Shown here one piece after another: positions 18,182 to 33,586 of a stretch of DNA of 34,301 bases. The notes below the pieces were generated by a model, which worked only from the letters and a program-made list of their open reading frames with translations, searched no databases and had not been told where the DNA came from. The stretch comes from a virus. Within the stretch, counting starts at the first letter, position 1; each line of letters begins with the position of its first letter. The stretch is taken from the IMG/VR virus record IMGVR_UViG_3300046168_000021, positions 1-34,301 of that record; one strand, given 5' to 3'. The position numbers were made by a program, and so were the translations under genes.

Positions 18182-21100
18182 ATGCCAGAAATTAAAAGAA
18201 CATTCAATGTCGGTAAAATGAACCGAGATCTGGATGATAGAATAGTACCTGCCGGTGAATATCGAGAAGGTTTTAATATTAATATCGGGCAATCAGAAAG
18301 CTCAGATGTTGGTGCAGTTGAAAATTTATTAGGTAATGAATTAGTAGCACAAAGTGGACTTGCTAATGGTAAATGTATAGGTCAAGTAGCTGATACTGGT
18401 GCAGAAAAAATATATTTTCTTGTTACTACAAATTCAATATATAATGAAACCAACAGTGGTCAGCATGGTTTATTTGAATATGATCAAAAAACAAAACAAC
18501 TTACAGCTTTAATTGTTTCAACACAGTTAAATTTACATCAAAATTATCCTGTAACAGGTATAAATATAGTTGATGACCTTTTATTTTGGACTGATAATAG
18601 AAATTATCCTAGAAAAATAAATGTAGTAACCGCAAGAAACAATACTTCTTACTATACTGCAGCTGCAGATATAGATAATTTAATATCTGTAGCTAAGTTT
18701 ACACCATACGAATCCCCAACTATTGTTGCGGCAACTAGAGAATCTAGTATATCTTCTACTTTTATGGAAGATAAACTTATTAGATTTTCATATAGGTGGC
18801 AGTTTGAAGATAGTGAGTATAGTGTATTAGCTCCATTTTCTCCTATACTTTTTTCAAGATTAAATGAAACTGATACAATAAGTACTTCACTGTCAAATTT
18901 TGGTGAAATAGAAACTTTTGTTAACGCAATAAATCAAGTACAACTACAAATACCTACACCAACCGGATATGGTATTACAAGTGTTGAATTAATATACAAA
19001 GAGTCTGGATCAGGTACTTTATATGTTGTTGATGATCAAGAAATTACAACAGAACCTTTTGTAAACTTTACATATTCTTCAACCGATCCATTTAGAACTT
19101 TGCCAGGTGATCAGCTTACTAGGGTTTATGATGCTGTACCTATTAAAGCTAAAGCACAAGAAGTTGCTGGTGGTAGATTAGTTTATGGAAATTTTTTACA
19201 AAATTTTGACATACCTAATATAGCTTTTAGTGTTGAAAGAACAGGTGAAACATCTGCTAGAAATAATATTTTAACAAATCAATCAGTTAAATCAAGAAGA
19301 ACATATCAGGTTGGTATTGTATTAGCTGATAAATTTGGTAGACAATCACCTGTTATATTATCTAGCTCTGGTACTGATACTGTTTTCATAGATCCAGGTT
19401 ATGGTAATGCATCATCAACAACTGCTTTTAATGCATTGAGAATAGTATTTGCAGACACAACACAGATACCAACATGGGCTTATTCATATAGAGTTGTTGT
19501 AAAACAACGTGAACAAGAATATTATAATTGGATATCTACTATTGATGCTGCTAACACGGTTAATCGTTTTGGCGATAGTATAAATAAAATACCTAGAGAT
19601 CAAACAGCTGCAATACCTCCTAGTACTTCAGCAACAATATCTCCATGTAATGTATCTGTTTATCCTAAGTATTTAGCTGGTGGAAATGTTTATACATCTC
19701 CATATGCGGCTTTAACTTCAGTACAATCTATTTCAAATCCTTCAGGTGATGCAACTGTTACAACTATTGATAATAGCGGTAACGCAGTATCTACTGGTTT
19801 ATGTGTTTTTGAAACAGAACCTGTTAGCTCTGAGTTAGATATATTTTATGAAACATCTACAGGAGGTTTAGTTGAGGATATTCCTGCTACTGCTATTGAT
19901 ATAGAATTTTTTAACTGTATATTGTTAACTTTTACAGCGGGTAATCATGTAGAAATAAATAGAATTAAAGCAGGTTTTAATCAACCGTTTTTTGATGTAG
20001 GTGTTAGAGCTTATGTAGTGCAAGAAAACTTTACTCAAGAAAGAAGAAATAATACTCTTATACATTCTAGTGGACTTTTAAACTCTAGAACTGGTATTAA
20101 CTACATAAATCAATTTAATGAATCTGAGGGTGGTCTAACTATCTCTCTTGATCCACTAAATGGTTCTGTACAGAAAATGTTTGTTGATGATACGCAGATA
20201 TTAATATTTCAAGAAGATAAAGTATCTAGATCACCTATTGATAAAAACTTTATATATGCAGCTGAAGGTGGCGCAGTGCCAGTTACAAGTAATACACAAT
20301 TTTTGGGAACAGTAGCTGCTTATGCTGGTGAGTTTGGTATATCAAACGATCCTCAATCTTTTGCAAGTTTTGGTTTTTCAAGATATTTTACAGATAAAAA
20401 TAGAGGTACTGTATTAAGATTATCTCAAAATGGTATTACTGAAATATCACAAGTTGGTATGGGTGATTTTTTTAGAGATGCTTTAAAACAATCTACGTCT
20501 ATTATAGGATCTTATGATGAGTATAGTCGTATGTATGAATTAACTATTATAGGCCAAGGCTTTGATAGTAATGAAGATACAAATGCAGCTACAGCATCAG
20601 ATGGATATTTAACAGTTACTTTTGATGATAGATCAGGTGGGTGGACAAGTTTTAGAGGTTATAAACAAGAAGGTGGTTTATCATTAAATAATACATATTA
20701 TACTTTTAACGGTGGTCAATTATGGCAACATCACAGTACTAATGTAACTAGAAATAATTTTTATAACTCTGGAACACAAGAGTCTTATGTTATACCTATA
20801 TTTAACGACGCTCCATCGCTTGTAAAACAATATAACAGTTTAAGTTATGAAGGCGATACTGGCTGGGAGTTAGAGTACATAGAAACAGATATAAGCGCTT
20901 CAGGAACACTACCAGTTTTAGCAACATCTTTTACAACAACCCTACAATTAAATGGTGCTGCACCTAATTCTGTATTTAATGGAGCTAATACTGCTCAAGC
21001 TAAGCAAGGTGATAATGTTCAATGGGCTATTTTTGTATCACCATTAAACTCTCAATTTGCTTTTAACAACGTAAACGATATAACATTAACTCCAGCTTCT

Positions 21101-22231
21101 GGAAGTAGTTTAAGTGTAACAAATCCCGTTGGAACTCCTCCGTTTGAATCTACAGATGGAAGATTAGTATTTTTAGTTCAACACACTGTTGGAAACGCTA
21201 ATAGCATACAAACTTTAAACATAGGAGGTACAGGCGCTTCTTTAGCATTTACTGTAGCTTTGTTGACCGTAAACATTATAGATACTGTTTCAAACTCTTC
21301 AATAACTCCAGCTTCACAAGTGTTTAATAATGCTGGAAGTAATAGTGTTATATTTAGTACAGCTGTTGAAAACAACTATTATATAGATACAGCTAACGTA
21401 ACTGTTAGTGTGCTTGGGATGCCAGCTTCTACTAATCCTGGAACTTTAACAAATGTAAGGAGTGGAGTTGGAGGTTGTAGTGCATGTTTGGATAATTTAA
21501 CTTACACTTTACCAATAACAGTTCCTTCAACAGCAACAGCTGGAACAATAACAGTAAATGGATCAGCAACATTAAAATATACCTTACAATTAAATCAAGG
21601 TAATGTAGCGGCACCTACGGGTGGAACTGTTAATTATAGCACACCTGTTCAATCGAGCGGAGCAACAACAACTATAGGTACACCTTTTTATAATTCTCCA
21701 TTTGATTTAGCAAGTACTAGAACTGTTGTTATAACATACACATGTGCAACAACTGAAATACTTGTTGATAATAGTTATGTTTTATCTGGTTTTCCAACTG
21801 GCACTACACCAACTCCTGTTTTAAGTAACGAAGATGGTCAACTAGCGATAACTCAAGTTATACCTATACTTACACAAGATACAGTTGTAACTCCAGTTGT
21901 AGATTCAACAGTAGGAGCAGTTGCAGCAACATTAGGTAATACTTCTACAATAAATCTACCTCAACCTGGTAGTGCACAAACTATAGCTAGTACTTGGAAT
22001 GTTAATGGATCTGCTTCACCAGGTTCTCCAACCGCCTCTTGGTTATCTTTAGATTCTGCTGCTTCTGGCGTAGCTATATCGTTATCTCCAGGAGTTTCTT
22101 TTACAGTTTCTGCTCCAGCTAATAATACCGGAGCTCAAAGATCTACTACTATTGAACTTACAACAACAAACAGTAGAGTAACAGGTTCAGCGGTAGCACC
22201 ACAAACAATAAACGTAATTCAAGCAGGATAA
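18182..22231 (+). CDS. Large tail-tube/stabilisation protein with Ig- and BACON-like C-terminus
   Basis: 1349 residues. The N-terminus carries VGKMNRDLDDRIVPAGEYRE followed by SSDVGAVENLLGNE, the hallmark pattern of the tail tube B / stabilisation (muzzle-like) proteins of short-tailed phages. The next 850 or so residues are beta-rich, consistent with a propeller-like tail nozzle. From about residue 920 the protein changes to Thr/Ser/Val-rich Ig-like sandwiches, including a C-S-A-C pair (GGCSACLDN). The last stretch (about 1277-1349) has ASWLSL, VSAPANNTGAQRSTTIEL and ends QTINVIQAG, which matches the BACON ending 'N(T)xGxxRxxxI ... xxVxQAG'. BACON folds bind carbohydrates or mucin in Bacteroidetes proteins and occur in crAss-like phages. 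It is the largest tail protein in the window. Confidence 0.65.
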   Translation: MPEIKRTFNVGKMNRDLDDRIVPAGEYREGFNINIGQSESSDVGAVENLLGNELVAQSGLANGKCIGQVADTGAEKIYFLVTTNSIYNETNSGQHGLFEYDQKTKQLTALIVSTQLNLHQNYPVTGINIVDDLLFWTDNRNYPRKINVVTARNNTSYYTAAADIDNLISVAKFTPYESPTIVAATRESSISSTFMEDKLIRFSYRWQFEDSEYSVLAPFSPILFSRLNETDTISTSLSNFGEIETFVNAINQVQLQIPTPTGYGITSVELIYKESGSGTLYVVDDQEITTEPFVNFTYSSTDPFRTLPGDQLTRVYDAVPIKAKAQEVAGGRLVYGNFLQNFDIPNIAFSVERTGETSARNNILTNQSVKSRRTYQVGIVLADKFGRQSPVILSSSGTDTVFIDPGYGNASSTTAFNALRIVFADTTQIPTWAYSYRVVVKQREQEYYNWISTIDAANTVNRFGDSINKIPRDQTAAIPPSTSATISPCNVSVYPKYLAGGNVYTSPYAALTSVQSISNPSGDATVTTIDNSGNAVSTGLCVFETEPVSSELDIFYETSTGGLVEDIPATAIDIEFFNCILLTFTAGNHVEINRIKAGFNQPFFDVGVRAYVVQENFTQERRNNTLIHSSGLLNSRTGINYINQFNESEGGLTISLDPLNGSVQKMFVDDTQILIFQEDKVSRSPIDKNFIYAAEGGAVPVTSNTQFLGTVAAYAGEFGISNDPQSFASFGFSRYFTDKNRGTVLRLSQNGITEISQVGMGDFFRDALKQSTSIIGSYDEYSRMYELTIIGQGFDSNEDTNAATASDGYLTVTFDDRSGGWTSFRGYKQEGGLSLNNTYYTFNGGQLWQHHSTNVTRNNFYNSGTQESYVIPIFNDAPSLVKQYNSLSYEGDTGWELEYIETDISASGTLPVLATSFTTTLQLNGAAPNSVFNGANTAQAKQGDNVQWAIFVSPLNSQFAFNNVNDITLTPASGSSLSVTNPVGTPPFESTDGRLVFLVQHTVGNANSIQTLNIGGTGASLAFTVALLTVNIIDTVSNSSITPASQVFNNAGSNSVIFSTAVENNYYIDTANVTVSVLGMPASTNPGTLTNVRSGVGGCSACLDNLTYTLPITVPSTATAGTITVNGSATLKYTLQLNQGNVAAPTGGTVNYSTPVQSSGATTTIGTPFYNSPFDLASTRTVVITYTCATTEILVDNSYVLSGFPTGTTPTPVLSNEDGQLAITQVIPILTQDTVVTPVVDSTVGAVAATLGNTSTINLPQPGSAQTIASTWNVNGSASPGSPTASWLSLDSAASGVAISLSPGVSFTVSAPANNTGAQRSTTIELTTTNSRVTGSAVAPQTINVIQAG

Positions 22232-22918: not shown

Positions 22919-24132
22919 TGGGAAGTATAGTAAAAGGAGTTGGATCATTATTTGGTGGTCGAGCTAGAAGAAGAGAAGAAGCAAGCGCACGAACAGAATT
23001 TGAAGGCGCTAAACAAGGATTAAAAGATTTTGAATTTGGAGATTTTTATGGAGATCTTCAAGCAAAAGAATTAGGTGCGGCGCAGCAAGGACAGTTGTCT
23101 CAAGCGCAAGGTGGCACTTTAGGCCCAGCGGGTCAAGCAGCTCTTGTTCAAAGAGGACCAGCTGTTCAGGCTCAGTTAGCTAATTTAGCAGATGCTCAAG
23201 GATACCAAGGTCAAGGTTACACAGCTGGATCTACTAGTGTTGGTCAGCTAGCAAGAGGCGCTGATACTGGTCTTACAAACACAATGAACAACTTACAAGT
23301 GTCTACGGCTGGAGCAGAACTAGCAGCACAAGAAGCAGATCAATCATTAGCAGCTTCTCAAGATTTAGCGGCTCAAGCAGGTACTGGGGCTGGTGGAGCT
23401 ACTGCGTTAGCCGCTGCCGCTGCAAAGTCTAAAGCAGGTATTTCTGCGGATATAGATAGACAAGTTAAATCTAACGAACAAATGAGAGCTGCCGCTGAAA
23501 GTCAATTACAACAAAGTCAATTAGCTCAAGGTAATTTAGCATCACAATTTGATTTAGGTCAACAACAATTTAACGTTGGCGCTGCAAACGATGCTTCAAG
23601 ATTTGGTGCTCAAGCTCAAAATGATGCAGCAAGATTTAGCGCACAAGCGCAAAATCAATTTGCTTTATCTGAATTTCAAGCTGGAAATCAAATGAATCAA
23701 TTTAATGCAGCTGCACAAAATCAAGTTGCTAGAGATAATTTTAATGCCGCTAATGCAACTAATCAGTTTAATGTTGGTGCACAAAACAGATTTTTAGAAA
23801 GTCAATTTGGTGCTGATAACGCTTTTTCTATGGCTAATATGGAGGCTGCAAACAAAATGTCACAGTTTAATGCAGCTGAAGCTAATCAACAAGAAAGAGC
23901 TAATCAATCACAGTTAAATTCATTTATGATAAATCAAGCTGCAGGTCAGGCTGATAGAGCTGAAAGCCAATATGCTCAACAAATGGATCAATTTAACATT
24001 GGATCACAAAGATATGGTCAAGCTCAACAAGCTAGAGCGCAAGCTACTGGTGATTTGTTAGGTGGTATTGGAGGAGTTTTAAGTGCTGCTGCTGGGCCAG
24101 CTGGAGTACTTAAAGGAATTATGGGAGGATAA
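22918..24132 (+). CDS. Probable internal (ejected) virion protein with hendecad repeats
   Basis: 404 residues, rich in Ala, Gln, Asn and Gly. The N-terminus MGSIVKGVGSLFGGRARRRE and C-terminus LLGGIGGVLSAAAGPAGVLK are glycine-zipper-like and may insert in membranes. From about residue 215 to 355 there are 11-residue units such as RFGAQAQNDAA, RFSAQAQNQFA, QFNAAAQNQVA and QFNVGAQNRFL. An 11-residue period usually gives straight, right-handed or near-straight coiled coils. Small Ala/Gln-rich proteins next to a giant one recall the T7 gp14/15/16 ejectosome, but no homology is shown. It lies between the GNAT-like gene and a 475-residue protein. Confidence 0.55.
   Translation: MGSIVKGVGSLFGGRARRREEASARTEFEGAKQGLKDFEFGDFYGDLQAKELGAAQQGQLSQAQGGTLGPAGQAALVQRGPAVQAQLANLADAQGYQGQGYTAGSTSVGQLARGADTGLTNTMNNLQVSTAGAELAAQEADQSLAASQDLAAQAGTGAGGATALAAAAAKSKAGISADIDRQVKSNEQMRAAAESQLQQSQLAQGNLASQFDLGQQQFNVGAANDASRFGAQAQNDAARFSAQAQNQFALSEFQAGNQMNQFNAAAQNQVARDNFNAANATNQFNVGAQNRFLESQFGADNAFSMANMEAANKMSQFNAAEANQQERANQSQLNSFMINQAAGQADRAESQYAQQMDQFNIGSQRYGQAQQARAQATGDLLGGIGGVLSAAAGPAGVLKGIMGG
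23568..23990 (+). repeat. Degenerate 33-bp coding repeat (11-residue units)
   Basis: About a dozen tandem 33-bp units encode F/N/Q/A-rich 11-mers, for example QFNAAAQNQVA and QFNVGAQNRFL. The units are conserved as protein but diverged as DNA, which suggests old duplication under structural constraint. Confidence 0.6.
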
Positions 24133-28500: not shown

Positions 28501-31500
28501 TAATCCAGGTAAAAATAACTTTTTAAATGTATTACAAAGAATAGCTTCAGATAAAAAATATAATACTGTAAAACAAAGAATACAAGCTTTAAATGATGCT
28601 GGTTGGAATAAAAAATCAATTGATGCATTAAATAAAGCAAATAACGATTTGATGAAGTTTCAAATAGATCTTCTTAAAAATCAATATGAAAAAGGAAAAA
28701 TAAGTAAAGATGCTTTGTTTACAATGCTACAGTGGCAAACTAATATTAAAAATGGTTTTAGAGGTTTAACTTCTGTAAACAGTTTTTATTTACAAAATGG
28801 TCCAGTTAAATTAACAAAAGGTGAGCACTCTAAGCCTAATGCTTTAACAATGGTTCAAATATATAACTATGTTACTGGCACTAAAAAGTCAAGAACTTTA
28901 GATGATATAATTTCTCAACATACTCAAGACTTTGGAACTAAAGAAAATTTTAATTTAATAGACAATGTTTTTGGAAGTACTACAGCAATGGAAGGAAATC
29001 AAAGATTGTTACAAGGCTTAAGCCCAACTGAATCTGCTAGTTTTTATGATATATCAGGACAAAGTATTTTAAGTAAAAATTTAGAAAAATCATTTAAAGA
29101 AAACGGAGTACCAATTGATGTGGGTTTTGCTCAATTGCAACAAGAATATAAAATTAATGGACCTATAAGTGTTCAAGTTGAAAATAAATTAAATGAAGTT
29201 AATATTAACAAGTTTAATGAAGTTTCTAAACAAGCAAAAGAAGCTAAAGCAAATTTATCTAATACAGAACTAGCTGAGGGAGTTTTGGGTGTTTTAAAAA
29301 ATTCTTGGGGAGGTAATATAAATATAATTACAGATAAAAAAGCAGCAATTGATTTTTTAATAAAAAATAACAACATGACATCTGTTCAAGCTAGATCTTA
29401 TGTTGGTAAAGCCTCTGGATTTAGAGCTGGTAGCACCATATTTGTTGGTTCTAGCTCAGATATGCTTAACACTGCTATACATGAATCTGGACATATTTGG
29501 AATCCAATAATAAAAGAACAAGCTCCTGAACTTTGGAATGATATGGTTCAAAAAGTTAAAGATTCTAATCTGTGGGAAGCTACTGTTGCTGCTATAAGAA
29601 ACGAACCAGAAGCATATCCTCCTGATCAATACACAGATGATTCTTTTGATTTAGAAGATGAAGTTTTATCTATATTAATAGGAAATAGAGGCGAAACTTT
29701 AGTTGAAGAAAAAAATTTAGATAAATCAGCTTTTAGAAAATTTATTGATAGTTTTTGGAAAAATTTAAGAAACATATTAGGATTTGATCCTACCACTAAA
29801 AACTTTCAAGATCTTACAATGAACGAGGTTCTTGATCTAGCTGTTTCTGAAATAATGACAGGAAATCCGCTTTCTAATTTTAGTAAATTAAAAGATGTTA
29901 ACATACCTAAAAAAACATTAAGAACTTTACAAGAAAGTAAAAATCCGTCTATGCGAGCGGTTAGAGATCCTGAATATAAAGCTTTAAAACAACTACAAAA
30001 AGATTATAAAGAAAATGGTAGAGATTTAGCTTTAGCTATAGAAACTTCTTATAGTAATGTAAAAGATATTTTAAGTTTTGATGATTGGTCTGATTTAGTG
30101 AGTTCAACGGTTAAAGAAATTAAAATTGGAAAAACAGCAGAAAGTACTGTAGTTGCCGTTGCAAAAAAAGACGTTGTTAATAATGAAAAAAATAGAAAAA
30201 ATTTAATTAATACAATAAAAAAATTAAATGCTTTTATTGAAGGAGATCAATATTTACCGACTGAAATATTAAACAAAAAAATAAATGATATACAAGATGC
30301 AGCTTTAAAAAATCAAAAAGAAATTGCTGAAAAACAAGCAGAAGGTTTAAATAAAAATTTTAGAAAAATAATAAATTCTGTTACAGGTAAACTAGGTAAA
30401 CCATCAAGATGGTTTATACCACCAAATGCAGAAGATATTAAAGGATTGCTTTATACTTTTTTACCAGGAGGTAAAGAAGGTGTTGAGGCTAAAAAGTTTT
30501 TTAATTCTACAATATTAGATCCATATTCACGAGGAGTAGCTGATTCTGAAGCTGAAATACTTCAAAAAACAAGACAGTTCACTAAATTAATGGAAAATTT
30601 TAAATCAGATTTAAAAGAAGTTATTGATGGAACTCCATATAGCGCTGGTCAAGCTATAAAAGTTTATAATTGGATTAAAAATGGAGTTGATGTTGATATT
30701 GAAAAACAAAGTTATAAAGACGCTTTGGTAGAAGCCGTAGAAACAAATCCTGAGTTAAAGGCTCTTGCTGATCAAATTGAACAAAATTTTCCTATAGAAT
30801 ATAAAGCTACATGGAGAAATGATACTACAATTAATAAATCTATATATGACGCTATAAATTCTGGAACTAGAACTAAACATTTAGCTACTTTTGCAGAAAA
30901 TGTAGATAATATATTTAATAAAGACAACTTGCAAGAAATTGAAAACTTGTATGGTAAAAAGTTTAGACAAGCTTTACAAAATTCATTACAAAGAATGAAG
31001 ACTGGTAGAAACCGCGTAAGCACGGATGCACAGTCAAATGCTTTTTTAAATTGGATAAATAGAGCTGTAGCAACTACGATGTTTGTTAATACTAGATCGG
31101 CCGTATTACAGTTGTTATCATCGTTAAATTTTATAGGTAAACCTAATAATAATATATTTCAAGCAACGGCCGCTATGTTTAGCGATAATTGGAAAAAAGA
31201 TTTTAATACTCTTTGGAACAGTGATTATTTAAAAAACAGAAGAGATGGTGCAAAATTTGATGTATTAGCTGATGAAATGTCAGAAGGTGATGTTAAAGGT
31301 TTAAACAAGATACTTAAGTTTGGATTTTTACCAACAAGAATGGCTGATAGTTTTGCTATAGCTTTAGGTGGGGCCGCATATTATAGAAACACTATGGACG
31401 CGTTGATTTCTAAAGGTATGTCTCAAGCTGATGCTAAAAAAGAAGCTATGAGAATGTGGCAAACAACCGCAGAAGAATCTCAACAATCTTCTGATCCTTC

Positions 31501-32608
31501 TAAAATATCTGAAATACAATCAAGTTCTATTGGGAAGGTTATATATGCTTTTGCAAATACTCCATTTCAATATGCTCGTATAAGTAAAAGAAAATTACAA
31601 GATGTAGTATCAGGAAGATCAGCTGCTGAAGGAGGTGGTAATCAAATAAGAAAAGATCTACAAAGTGTACTTTATTATACAGTAGGTCAAGCCATGGTGT
31701 TTAACGCATTACAAACGGCATTATTTGCCGCTGCTTTTGAAGATGATGAAGATGAAAAAGAAAAACTTGTTGATGAAAAAACTATTTTATCTGTTGAAAG
31801 GGCATTAACTTCTTATGCAAAAAGCTTAGGTAATCCAGGTGCTGTAGTGGGTGCTATATACAACGTTATAGCTGAAGCTAATGAACAACAAGAAAAATTT
31901 GGGTTTATAGATAACCCATATAAAGTTGCTTTAGAAGCTACATCTATATCACCACCTTTAAATACTAAACTAAGAGACATAGTTGCAATAGGTAATATAT
32001 ATAAATACAATGAAAAAGAAATTAAAAATGATCCTTTTAAACTTTCTCCTGACAACAAGGCTTTGGAAATTATTGGTAATGCTGCTTCATTTGGCGGTGT
32101 TCCTTTAGATAGAGTTATAAGGAAAGCTCAAAATTTGTCTGCTATAGCTAATGAAGAGGCAGACGCGTGGCAAAAATTGTTTTTAACATTAGGTTGGAGT
32201 AAATGGGAATTAGGTTTACAGAATAATAATAGAAAATCTGGTTTAGATTTAGATTTAGATTTAGACCTAGACCTAGATTTAGATTTAGACTTAGGGCCTT
32301 TAAACAAAATAAAAAAAACTAGTAGTTTACCAAAAAATGTTTTAGGAAGAGCCAATAATGATGGAACTATTGAAGTAGATCCTTCACTTAAAGGTAAAGA
32401 AAAAAAGAAAGTAATAGCGCATGAGAAAAAACACATGCAAGACATGAAGTCTGGTAAATTAAATTATGATGATAATTTTGTTTATTATAATGGAAACAAG
32501 CATGAGCGTAAAAACGGTAAAATAGACTACAACGGTAAGAAATATATAGAGGGCCATCCTAAACTACCTTGGGAAGCGGCTGCGAATAGGGTAGAAAAAT
32601 CTGCATAA
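25583..32608 (+). CDS. Giant multidomain internal virion protein with two zincin motifs
   Basis: A 2341-residue protein, the largest in the window. Gly/Ala-rich segments near residues 180-200 and 230-340 could enter membranes. A long helical region follows. HESGH at 1300-1304, with a downstream acidic helix (E1360 in LEDEVLSILIG), suits a gluzincin metalloprotease. A region near 1825-2200 carries KVIYAFANTPFQYARISKRK and ends LGWSKWELG, typical of large phage polyvalent proteins. Eight Leu-Asp dipeptides (2221-2236) lead into a second zincin-like domain: VIAHEKKHMQDMKSG with HEKKH at 2280-2284 and E2331 in LPWEAAANRVE. It may be ejected and help the DNA cross the envelope, or cleave host or phage proteins. 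The role is inferred; the motifs are directly visible. Confidence 0.6.
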   Translation: MEEEFEFITLDNYQSFTPEEEEQELDEFGNPIIINQLSDEQIAKNEKLAFQNALKSVSPQGFWALDKISNFANVIPSTVKGILNAGDALAQGAYEIITGDKIDSIEKQEAFDLALGNVKSVTSPQNVALENLADESIETLSFGIEDRKGEDFISLAEKGDYLESADALMSDLAQGIPSLYLSMVGGGLGAAALGTSSFGSKFDEVKREEVKDEALFQEDALGMSSSYLNKITTSGITGIGDFVGELVTGRLGKIAGRLAQTFGPKVSSKILGKVIGTTGASITEAASEAVPEFVESYLGDYAIGGDEKALEGLSRRMWRSGIIGGILGAGGVSLSNLNSEAKQAINVAVQPKVITKQQLEVFRKIKELEATLETTEDPIAREAIELEINELTQSRQNSINEVSNRVQELSTDQLQELNSINGDIDLFNSVVNDTNSSEIAKEAAQNQINNLEKKAIDIFQQPELKNIELSEKAQELYNERGVEARDEIIETQEGLIRQVAINKLNSLPQNKRAEDNYENLVSQLKYGPGSVEALINSYNPETGVPITAYIAEQLPKRADRIAKQVISQDNVTDFNSTEVSNILTEDNFDFEVQIGSKLLADKLNMPVGLINKALKAVEPGLVSIESMLDSNNKELSPKKKASEIDKEFKRIFNNRLVNDIKNEFGKNTKTKEDFSNYLNKNYIGLAQAFLTQKSGLKGRGISKQWAMNPPTKQEFIDYFEGKDVKKNTRSDRKAALAEAVSNQIAIDARNEFLDANPDLRKAFNERNKIQLKVNRSNKAQEEASKVINETLIADKNEVESMKTLGGGFKSFLNDLKQYKTVKDASQKELIENPQWVKAGVSRGDNIYFEENVDVMKNDLSSVVSSIPKELVDLFGLDSFAFLGQANRALDPASTTLASRLEGGKGSPKWLIKKDGKAERILPGTPGVGFEYFKNAKESAKDIEELYKNKDIDLKLYRQFKNINLNNVEFQNLTNPGKNNFLNVLQRIASDKKYNTVKQRIQALNDAGWNKKSIDALNKANNDLMKFQIDLLKNQYEKGKISKDALFTMLQWQTNIKNGFRGLTSVNSFYLQNGPVKLTKGEHSKPNALTMVQIYNYVTGTKKSRTLDDIISQHTQDFGTKENFNLIDNVFGSTTAMEGNQRLLQGLSPTESASFYDISGQSILSKNLEKSFKENGVPIDVGFAQLQQEYKINGPISVQVENKLNEVNINKFNEVSKQAKEAKANLSNTELAEGVLGVLKNSWGGNINIITDKKAAIDFLIKNNNMTSVQARSYVGKASGFRAGSTIFVGSSSDMLNTAIHESGHIWNPIIKEQAPELWNDMVQKVKDSNLWEATVAAIRNEPEAYPPDQYTDDSFDLEDEVLSILIGNRGETLVEEKNLDKSAFRKFIDSFWKNLRNILGFDPTTKNFQDLTMNEVLDLAVSEIMTGNPLSNFSKLKDVNIPKKTLRTLQESKNPSMRAVRDPEYKALKQLQKDYKENGRDLALAIETSYSNVKDILSFDDWSDLVSSTVKEIKIGKTAESTVVAVAKKDVVNNEKNRKNLINTIKKLNAFIEGDQYLPTEILNKKINDIQDAALKNQKEIAEKQAEGLNKNFRKIINSVTGKLGKPSRWFIPPNAEDIKGLLYTFLPGGKEGVEAKKFFNSTILDPYSRGVADSEAEILQKTRQFTKLMENFKSDLKEVIDGTPYSAGQAIKVYNWIKNGVDVDIEKQSYKDALVEAVETNPELKALADQIEQNFPIEYKATWRNDTTINKSIYDAINSGTRTKHLATFAENVDNIFNKDNLQEIENLYGKKFRQALQNSLQRMKTGRNRVSTDAQSNAFLNWINRAVATTMFVNTRSAVLQLLSSLNFIGKPNNNIFQATAAMFSDNWKKDFNTLWNSDYLKNRRDGAKFDVLADEMSEGDVKGLNKILKFGFLPTRMADSFAIALGGAAYYRNTMDALISKGMSQADAKKEAMRMWQTTAEESQQSSDPSKISEIQSSSIGKVIYAFANTPFQYARISKRKLQDVVSGRSAAEGGGNQIRKDLQSVLYYTVGQAMVFNALQTALFAAAFEDDEDEKEKLVDEKTILSVERALTSYAKSLGNPGAVVGAIYNVIAEANEQQEKFGFIDNPYKVALEATSISPPLNTKLRDIVAIGNIYKYNEKEIKNDPFKLSPDNKALEIIGNAASFGGVPLDRVIRKAQNLSAIANEEADAWQKLFLTLGWSKWELGLQNNNRKSGLDLDLDLDLDLDLDLDLGPLNKIKKTSSLPKNVLGRANNDGTIEVDPSLKGKEKKKVIAHEKKHMQDMKSGKLNYDDNFVYYNGNKHERKNGKIDYNGKKYIEGHPKLPWEAAANRVEKSA
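32243..32290 (+). repeat. Hexanucleotide TTAGAY repeat encoding (Leu-Asp)8
   Basis: Eight units TTAGAT/TTAGAC/CTAGAC/CTAGAT in a row, encoding Leu-Asp eight times and followed by TTAGGG (Leu-Gly). Unit changes would not alter the frame. It separates the main body of the giant protein from its C-terminal HExxH domain, so it would vary linker length. Confidence 0.9.
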
Positions 32609-33551: not shown

Positions 33552-33586
33552 AAAGGGGAGCAAACCATTACGGCAAGCTCCCCTTT
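33552..33586. terminator. Bidirectional terminator between convergent genes
   Basis: AAAGGGGAGC (33552-33561) pairs with GCTCCCCTTT (33577-33586) around a 15-base loop. The plus-strand side has only TTTAATTATTT. The minus-strand reading ends CCCCTTTTTTATTTATCC, a better T tract. It separates the plus-strand late operon from the minus-strand nrdA unit. Confidence 0.85.

Follow-up and report, generated by a model that had tools for sequence, protein, structure and literature searches.

A Leu-Asp repeat in the hypervariable charged linker before the zincin-like C-terminal domain of a giant phage protein

The giant gene, its phage, and its relatives

According to our analysis, the 34,301-base virus sequence studied here (the window, taken at its full length) carries on its plus strand, as listed among its open reading frames, the gene P0001 (25583 to 32608), which encodes a giant protein of 2341 amino acids; in what follows, W denotes this protein and L-numbers denote relative loci in other contigs. 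The body of the protein contains, by motif position, a HESGH at residue 1300 (29480 to 29494), a second HExxH motif absent from the initial annotation of this DNA, and ends, according to the alignment of the relatives, in the conserved stretch LGWSKWELG (32189 to 32215), behind which a hypervariable stretch begins. As read from the sequence, the linker opens with LQNNNRKSG (32216 to 32242), continues with a (Leu-Asp)8 tract at residues 2221 to 2236 (32243 to 32290), which tandem-repeat detection also found, and closes with LGPLNKIKKTSSLPK (32291 to 32335), which leads up to a C-terminal zincin-like domain (32336 to 32605) modeled by AlphaFold2 with pLDDT values of 89 to 97 per ten-residue block and 85 at the end. 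Within this domain lie HEKKH, the HExxH motif at residue 2280 (32420 to 32434), and LPWE (32564 to 32575), and all these features are on the plus strand.

The initial annotation had placed the tract correctly, in frame and with eight units, between the body of the protein and a C-terminal HExxH domain, and only its description of the units as eight TTAGAY needs amendment, six of them being TTAGAY and two CTAGAY (in order, TTAGAT three times, TTAGAC, CTAGAC, CTAGAT, TTAGAT, and TTAGAC), with one extra Leu after (LD)8. Tandem Repeats Finder gave the tract a score of 71, with 8.8 copies and 89% matches, which ranks second among its 32 rows in the window, the 33-base repeat at 23586 scoring 91. 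In the 2341-amino-acid protein, the tract is the sole dipeptide run of three or more and the sole exact tandem repeat of at least 8 amino acids (units of 2 to 7 amino acids), in agreement with the earlier remark that the gene has no other such repeat; weaker, imperfect DNA repeats are also present in the gene, e.g., at 30181 to 30230. The expectation of (LD)8 by chance from composition is 2.7e-15 per protein, and in 2000 shuffles of the giant protein LD runs reached a length of at most 2. Since the assemblies of L001/L002 and L003 carry LD tracts at the same place, the tract is not an artifact of one assembly.

The terminase of this virus is 62% identical to that of MW202828 (the uncultured record Manatee Spring) and about 45% identical to those of the Flavobacterium "elemo" phages, and it matches 87 records, including 68 Flavobacterium phages and 15 Cellulophaga phages, which suggests hosts among the Flavobacteriia; portal and terminase also match PHROG families. 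The giant protein has no Pfam family at an E value of ≤0.01. When searched against 50,697 phage records, its first 1639 amino acids gave weak matches to three of them, while its last 702 amino acids, a region of L200, and one of L083 gave none, so that no annotated isolate is available to guide the assignment of function. Residues around the HESGH of the body weakly match proteins of MW202828 and of Tenacibaculum phage Gundel_1. A gene of about 11.6 kb in MW202828.1 (741 to 12320) is annotated as "reticulocyte binding/rhoptry protein" and probably encodes a misannotated phage giant protein. Elsewhere in the window, positions 18182 to 22231 encode a 1349-amino-acid structural protein with weak matches, under the curated cutoffs, to a BACON domain and to the C-terminal domain of the crAss muzzle.

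Relatives of the conserved region of the giant protein are encoded at at least 573 loci of viral contigs, 80 of which were kept for comparison, and at 16 loci of genome contigs, all titled MAG, with names in 6 of the 16 titles that we take to be those of Bacteroidota groups. LPD38, a family considered for the conserved body region, was not supported by Pfam and is therefore rejected. (LD)5 was also rejected as a mark of the family: a scan of viral contigs returned at least 120 such stretches, many of them, judged by eye, in short or low-complexity open frames, and LD repeats per se therefore do not identify relatives. A 378-amino-acid open reading frame at L104, encoding a viral protein absent from the results of the giant-protein search, bears an acidic (LD)5 tail at its end.

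Linkers and tails behind the conserved body

Across the relatives, the conserved body terminates in a LGWxxWxLG-like motif. According to a text pattern applied to the 80 loci kept out of at least 573, the motif is followed by a HExxH domain at 11 loci, a Cys/His-rich module at 6, a helical LGLxK module at 10, and none of these at 53; three of the 80 run off the end of their contig, and two of the 53 (L175 and L191) show a variant helical module by eye. The Cys/His-rich module replaces the HExxH domain in L159, L181, L195, L196, L205, and L225. The 53 loci assigned no module end 13 to 72 amino acids past the aligned body, with a median of 27. Most tails that lack the domain are basic, with a median net charge of +9 over 61 tails; this class omits 10 tails with other modules and three cut by the contig end but still includes six that bear the helical module, as well as the four acidic tails of L063, L083, L303, and L304. 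As most relatives end in a variable tail with no module behind it, the LD tract of W sits at the position of a hypervariable tail, to which the HExxH domain is an addition.

Linkers with a HExxH domain behind them were measured in 27 cases, namely, W, the 17 relatives compared in body and domain, eight more, and L014, whose domain is cut by the contig end. The count passes over L002 and L008, whose linkers duplicate those of L001 and L004, while L009/L346, excluded from the trees, contributes its linker only. The 27 linkers are 31 to 60 amino acids long, their net charge runs from −14 to +14, and charged residues make up a median of 50% of them, versus 25% of 178 body segments. Short-period repeats are present in 11 of the 27 linkers versus none of the 178 body segments at P < 0.01 and in 15 versus 6 at P < 0.05, the remaining 12 linkers not being repetitive at the latter threshold; because kinship makes the linkers non-independent, the evidence is somewhat weaker than these counts suggest. 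Five further linkers (L228, L231, L233, L236, and L237), of which that of L228 is longer than 60 amino acids, have no LD tract and no clear repeat by eye, and their inclusion in the statistics, outside of which they stand, would lower the repetitive share.

LD repeats were seen in 3 of 32 related linkers. Counting their units in relatives had been proposed in the initial annotation as a check on an adjustable linker, and their number does vary, with 8 in W, 5 after LDLS in L001, and 13 in L003. L333, which is 70% identical to W over 362 amino acids of the body, has (KA)6(KP)5 at the place of the LD tract, and other linkers repeat with period 5 (DFKEV in L154), 7 (DFEIxTx in L346), or 10 (L345) or show no clear repeat; beyond (Lys-Ala)6(Lys-Pro)5, the non-LD units are about four to ten residues long. 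As judged from these sequences, Leu-Asp is not the conserved feature, because relatives use other residues and even the opposite charge. Our computations instead support a tether whose length, residue type, and net charge are hypervariable across the sequences compared and which often consists of short tandem repeats. A pentapeptide-repeat fold or beta-helix was considered, period 5 being common in linkers and tails, but was set aside since the units are few.

The C-terminal domain and its exchange

In 42 aligned domains, the H, E, and H of HExxH and the W and E of PWE are invariant, a pattern that would fit a zincin with a Glu ligand, the E of LPWE being the likely third ligand of the zinc. 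The AlphaFold2 model of the domain consists of strands, a helix at 53 to 72 that holds HExxH, further strands, and a helix at 111 to 122, so that both HExxH with a downstream Glu and a sheet with an active-site helix and a Glu helix, as in zincins, are found in the prediction. Compared with viral predicted structures, the model had 11 matches at an E value of ≤0.001, three of which are named SprT-like; compared with PDB structures, it had none at this threshold, with the abylysin zymogen as the best (E value of 0.29), and the best sequence match among solved structures, with an E value of 0.067, was unconvincing. By predicted fold, we class the domain as a SprT-like zincin. It has the HExxH helix and the fold in common with SprT-like and IrrE-like (M78) zincins, but the likeness is one of fold only, as the curated profiles of the SprT and M78 (IrrE) families are not clearly matched: the best E value was 0.015 for the M78 Pfam profile (7 of 14 members) and, likewise short of a clear match, 2.1e-4 for that of DUF6782 (2 of 14 members).

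Two models were compared, one covering the final 591 residues (mean pLDDT of 56.3) and the other the tract plus the domain (83.0). In both, the domain is confident and the LD tract falls below a pLDDT of 50 with no secondary structure, a call of disorder that has to be read with the unreliability of AlphaFold2 on simple repeats in mind, and the models thus lend computational support to an unstructured tether. When the domain itself was searched for, it was encoded in a short open frame (101 to 145 amino acids, stop to stop) at 63 of 80 loci, and hence it is often a free-standing protein; among the 17 loci with a long frame, five are additional, whereas 12 duplicate contigs included before. We rejected the idea that the domain of W is translated separately, as inspection by eye showed no ATG in frame from the tract to the HExxH motif. 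At L009/L346 (contig IMGVR_UViG_3300046170_000411), the frame is broken inside the HExxH domain, through either an assembly error or a real loss.

Over 17 relatives, identity to W falls from 90% down to 38% in the body and stays at 53 to 69% in the domain, and the two identities are uncorrelated over 153 pairs (rho of 0.12, P = 0.14; the pairs are not independent). L004 and L012 are 41% identical in their bodies and 89% identical in their domains; at the DNA level, identity is 49% at the body end, rises to 59% across the linker, 83% across the domain, and 85% over the 60 bases after the stop, which form a terminator-like hairpin, and drops back to 49% further downstream. Among the 19 chosen pairs for which regional DNA identities were calculated, L004/L172, L012/L154, and L147/L172 resemble L004/L012 in their pattern, while L012/L148, L004/L011, L011/L148, and L148/L172 have the domain in common (71 to 77%) but not the hairpin stretch (46 to 59%), and in L147/L154 the likeness continues past the hairpin (78%). 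Since the pairs differ in their likeness at and downstream of the hairpin, the ends of the exchanged piece differ as well. In approximately unbiased (AU) tests on groups that were picked after the identities had been seen, and whose P values are therefore optimistic, the domain data reject the body pair L004+L154 (p-AU of 0.008) and a 12-member body clade (p-AU of 0.009), the body data reject L004+L012 (p-AU of 6e-55), and the domain data do not reject a clade of W, L001, and L003 (p-AU of 0.35). The computations support a HExxH domain that, to judge from these comparisons, is an exchangeable module, moved between phages independently of the body, and a replacement of the domain in the window's own lineage appears likely.

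We propose, tentatively, that the repeat-built seam after the LGWxxWxLG-like motif is the exchange joint itself, behind which a zincin, a Cys/His-rich module, a helical module, or no module is swapped, sometimes together with a terminator-like hairpin, and that a low-complexity tether would fit any body with no interface being required. The tips of polymorphic toxins are swapped in a comparable way. We deem this module-exchange seam a more interesting result than (LD)8 itself: if the proposal holds, the phage attaches interchangeable domains to one large protein by means of a charged, unstructured joint of simple repeats, and, as such a joint is rebuilt from these repeats, its exact sequence would hardly matter. 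The linkers also form a natural series (LD, KA/KP, FKxxD, DFEIxT, and WSDD) in which the effects of tether length and charge on a peptidase-like domain could be tested.

Strong hairpins that resemble terminators and have a CC(A)ATTACGG loop region stand after the giant gene or its neighbor, at 33552 to 33586 in the window, about 5675 to 5722 in L004, 5686 to 5732 in L012, and 5788 to 5835 in L148. At gathering scores, Rfam matched nothing in the window. By eye, 17 of 19 distinct contexts are hairpin-like, the four hairpin stretches that were folded gave z values of −5.03 to −7.05, and CCAATTACGG occurs 17 times, versus at most 6 times for shuffled-letter controls, while CCATTACGG occurs 11 times, versus at most 11.

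A proposed repeat-built tether and its alternatives

On balance, we favor, with some confidence, the reading that the LD tract belongs to a disordered, highly charged tether which is rebuilt from short tandem repeats and joins the body of the giant protein to an exchangeable zincin-like domain. Tandem duplication would create and resize the tether, and selection would retain its length, charge, and disorder rather than its exact sequence; being long and unstructured, it would allow the domain to fold and to reach its substrate apart from the body, and (LD)n would be the version of it adopted in this lineage. As far as sequence comparison indicates, (LD)8 itself is not special to function, and what maintains the alternation of hydrophobic residues and Asp is probably selection acting on the peptide rather than recent slippage.

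The initial annotation had instead suggested an adjustable linker driven by slippage, where hexanucleotide units would be gained and lost in replication and the length may vary in a population and be tuned by selection. Part of this view stands, as length and repeat content, including the number of LD units, do differ across relatives, and the linkers of L004 and L154, whose body ends are 89% identical in DNA, differ by exactly one 15-nucleotide repeat unit. The (KA)6 DNA of L333 is, moreover, nearly pure, with a borderline excess of lag-6 identity (0.967 versus 0.854 expected, P = 0.050; P = 0.080 for the whole (KA)6(KP)5K tract). Active slippage, however, finds no support in the LD tracts, whose synonymous variation is that of ordinary codon use: in six of them, DNA homogeneity was not in excess of that expected from codon usage (P values of 0.06, 0.31, 0.31, 0.61, 0.97, and 0.99, with low power on short tracts and with the codon use of the window gene applied to L063 and L081), and the tract of W, at a lag-6 identity of 0.881 versus 0.836 expected (P = 0.31; low power with 8 units), lacks the excess of a slippage-prone microsatellite. 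The tracts of L001 and L002 (99.8% identical over 7004 nucleotides) are identical, differences in unit number being seen only between more distant relatives, L304, L305, and L306 (99.97 to 100% identical) have one common hydrophobic-Asp tail, and among relatives the repeat residues change, not the length alone. The unit difference between L004 and L154, the codon-like tracts, and the sameness of L001 and L002 together suggest a turnover of units on an evolutionary time scale, with fresh slippage unseen, and we regard a slippage-driven linker as unlikely.

Slightly more doubtful is a third reading, in which the hydrophobic-Asp stretch is a specific binding element, such as a beta strand or an acidic tail that would dock to a partner in the virion or shield a basic surface, and the domain became attached behind it later. 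It draws on distant relatives in which such stretches are free C termini at the same place: L083 ends in (LD)8DDIFD, L081, the neighboring DNA of which matches the L083 group, in LELDEIFD, and L063 in (LD)11LEL, all with no domain behind, so that a tether cannot be the sole role of the LD tract. In L303 to L308, which are 84 to 86% identical to L083, the alternation is kept with Phe or Ile in place of some Leu (LDFDFD and LDIDLD), which hints, at the level of sequence, at selection on the peptide pattern in that group and a specific peptide function. The distant relationship of L083 to W is given by BLASTP of the bodies without the tract (E value of 1e-6), which is also the independent evidence for L303, whose match to the family profile A1 is partly circular because A1 includes its near relative L083; L063 is a moderate match only, with a probability of 70%. 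For the alternation of hydrophobic residues and Asp, 7 of 18 linkers that bear a domain reach P < 0.05, as do 5 of the 61 tails described above. Against a binding element speak the basic charge of most tails without a domain, the predicted disorder of the LD stretch, and the flip of net charge between the sister linkers of L005 and L007 (−3 versus +5), which are 72% identical in DNA behind body ends that are 95% identical. A neutral junction, in which the stretch would be a functionless and unconstrained remnant of the fusion and exchange of C-terminal modules, is highly improbable. In its favor, the stretch is hypervariable, lies at the boundary of an exchanged module, and has a variable counterpart in relatives with no module; against it, dN/dS is below 1 in nine pairs (0.12 to 0.58 from uncertain linker alignments, versus 0.04 to 0.15 in the last 450 nucleotides of the body), charged residues are twice as frequent as in the body, and none of the 27 measured linkers is shorter than 31 amino acids.

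The tethered zincin-like domain recalls the polyvalent proteins, which, according to their description (Iyer et al. 2017, PMC5512222), have in common with W very large size in a phage protein, HExxH motifs, one of them C-terminal, and shuffling of modules; W, by its sequence, offers 2341 amino acids, the HEKKH domain at residue 2280, and the HESGH motif at residue 1300. For zincin-like metallopeptidase domains of polyvalent proteins, self-processing before or after injection has been proposed in that work (PMC5512222), and, by analogy, the zincin of W may act on the giant protein itself or, once injected along with the DNA, on proteins of the host. The word "linker" is absent from the main text of the same paper (PMC5512222). 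Pfam domains of large polyvalent proteins were detected neither at an E value of ≤1 in 13 members nor at ≤10 in P0001, and, lacking such an associated domain, the giant protein is not classed among them.

Borg elements, according to their description (PMC9879509), are mobile elements that likewise bear in-frame tandem repeats creating intrinsically disordered regions, but their repeats are reportedly mostly perfect at the DNA level, whereas the LD tract combines degenerate DNA with a perfect peptide. In TolA of E. coli, as reported (PMC3477136), the copy number of a repeat varies among strains and alters function; TolA, however, is a cellular protein with a measured contraction frequency, and the LD tract is known from sequence alone. 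Our literature search, covering titles and abstract openings, found no Leu-Asp repeat linker in a phage. In TonB, a dipeptide repeat of Lys-Pro and Glu-Pro forms an extended charged spacer. This spacer resembles the (KA)6(KP)5 linker of L333, although the protein is unrelated and the LD tract has no proline.
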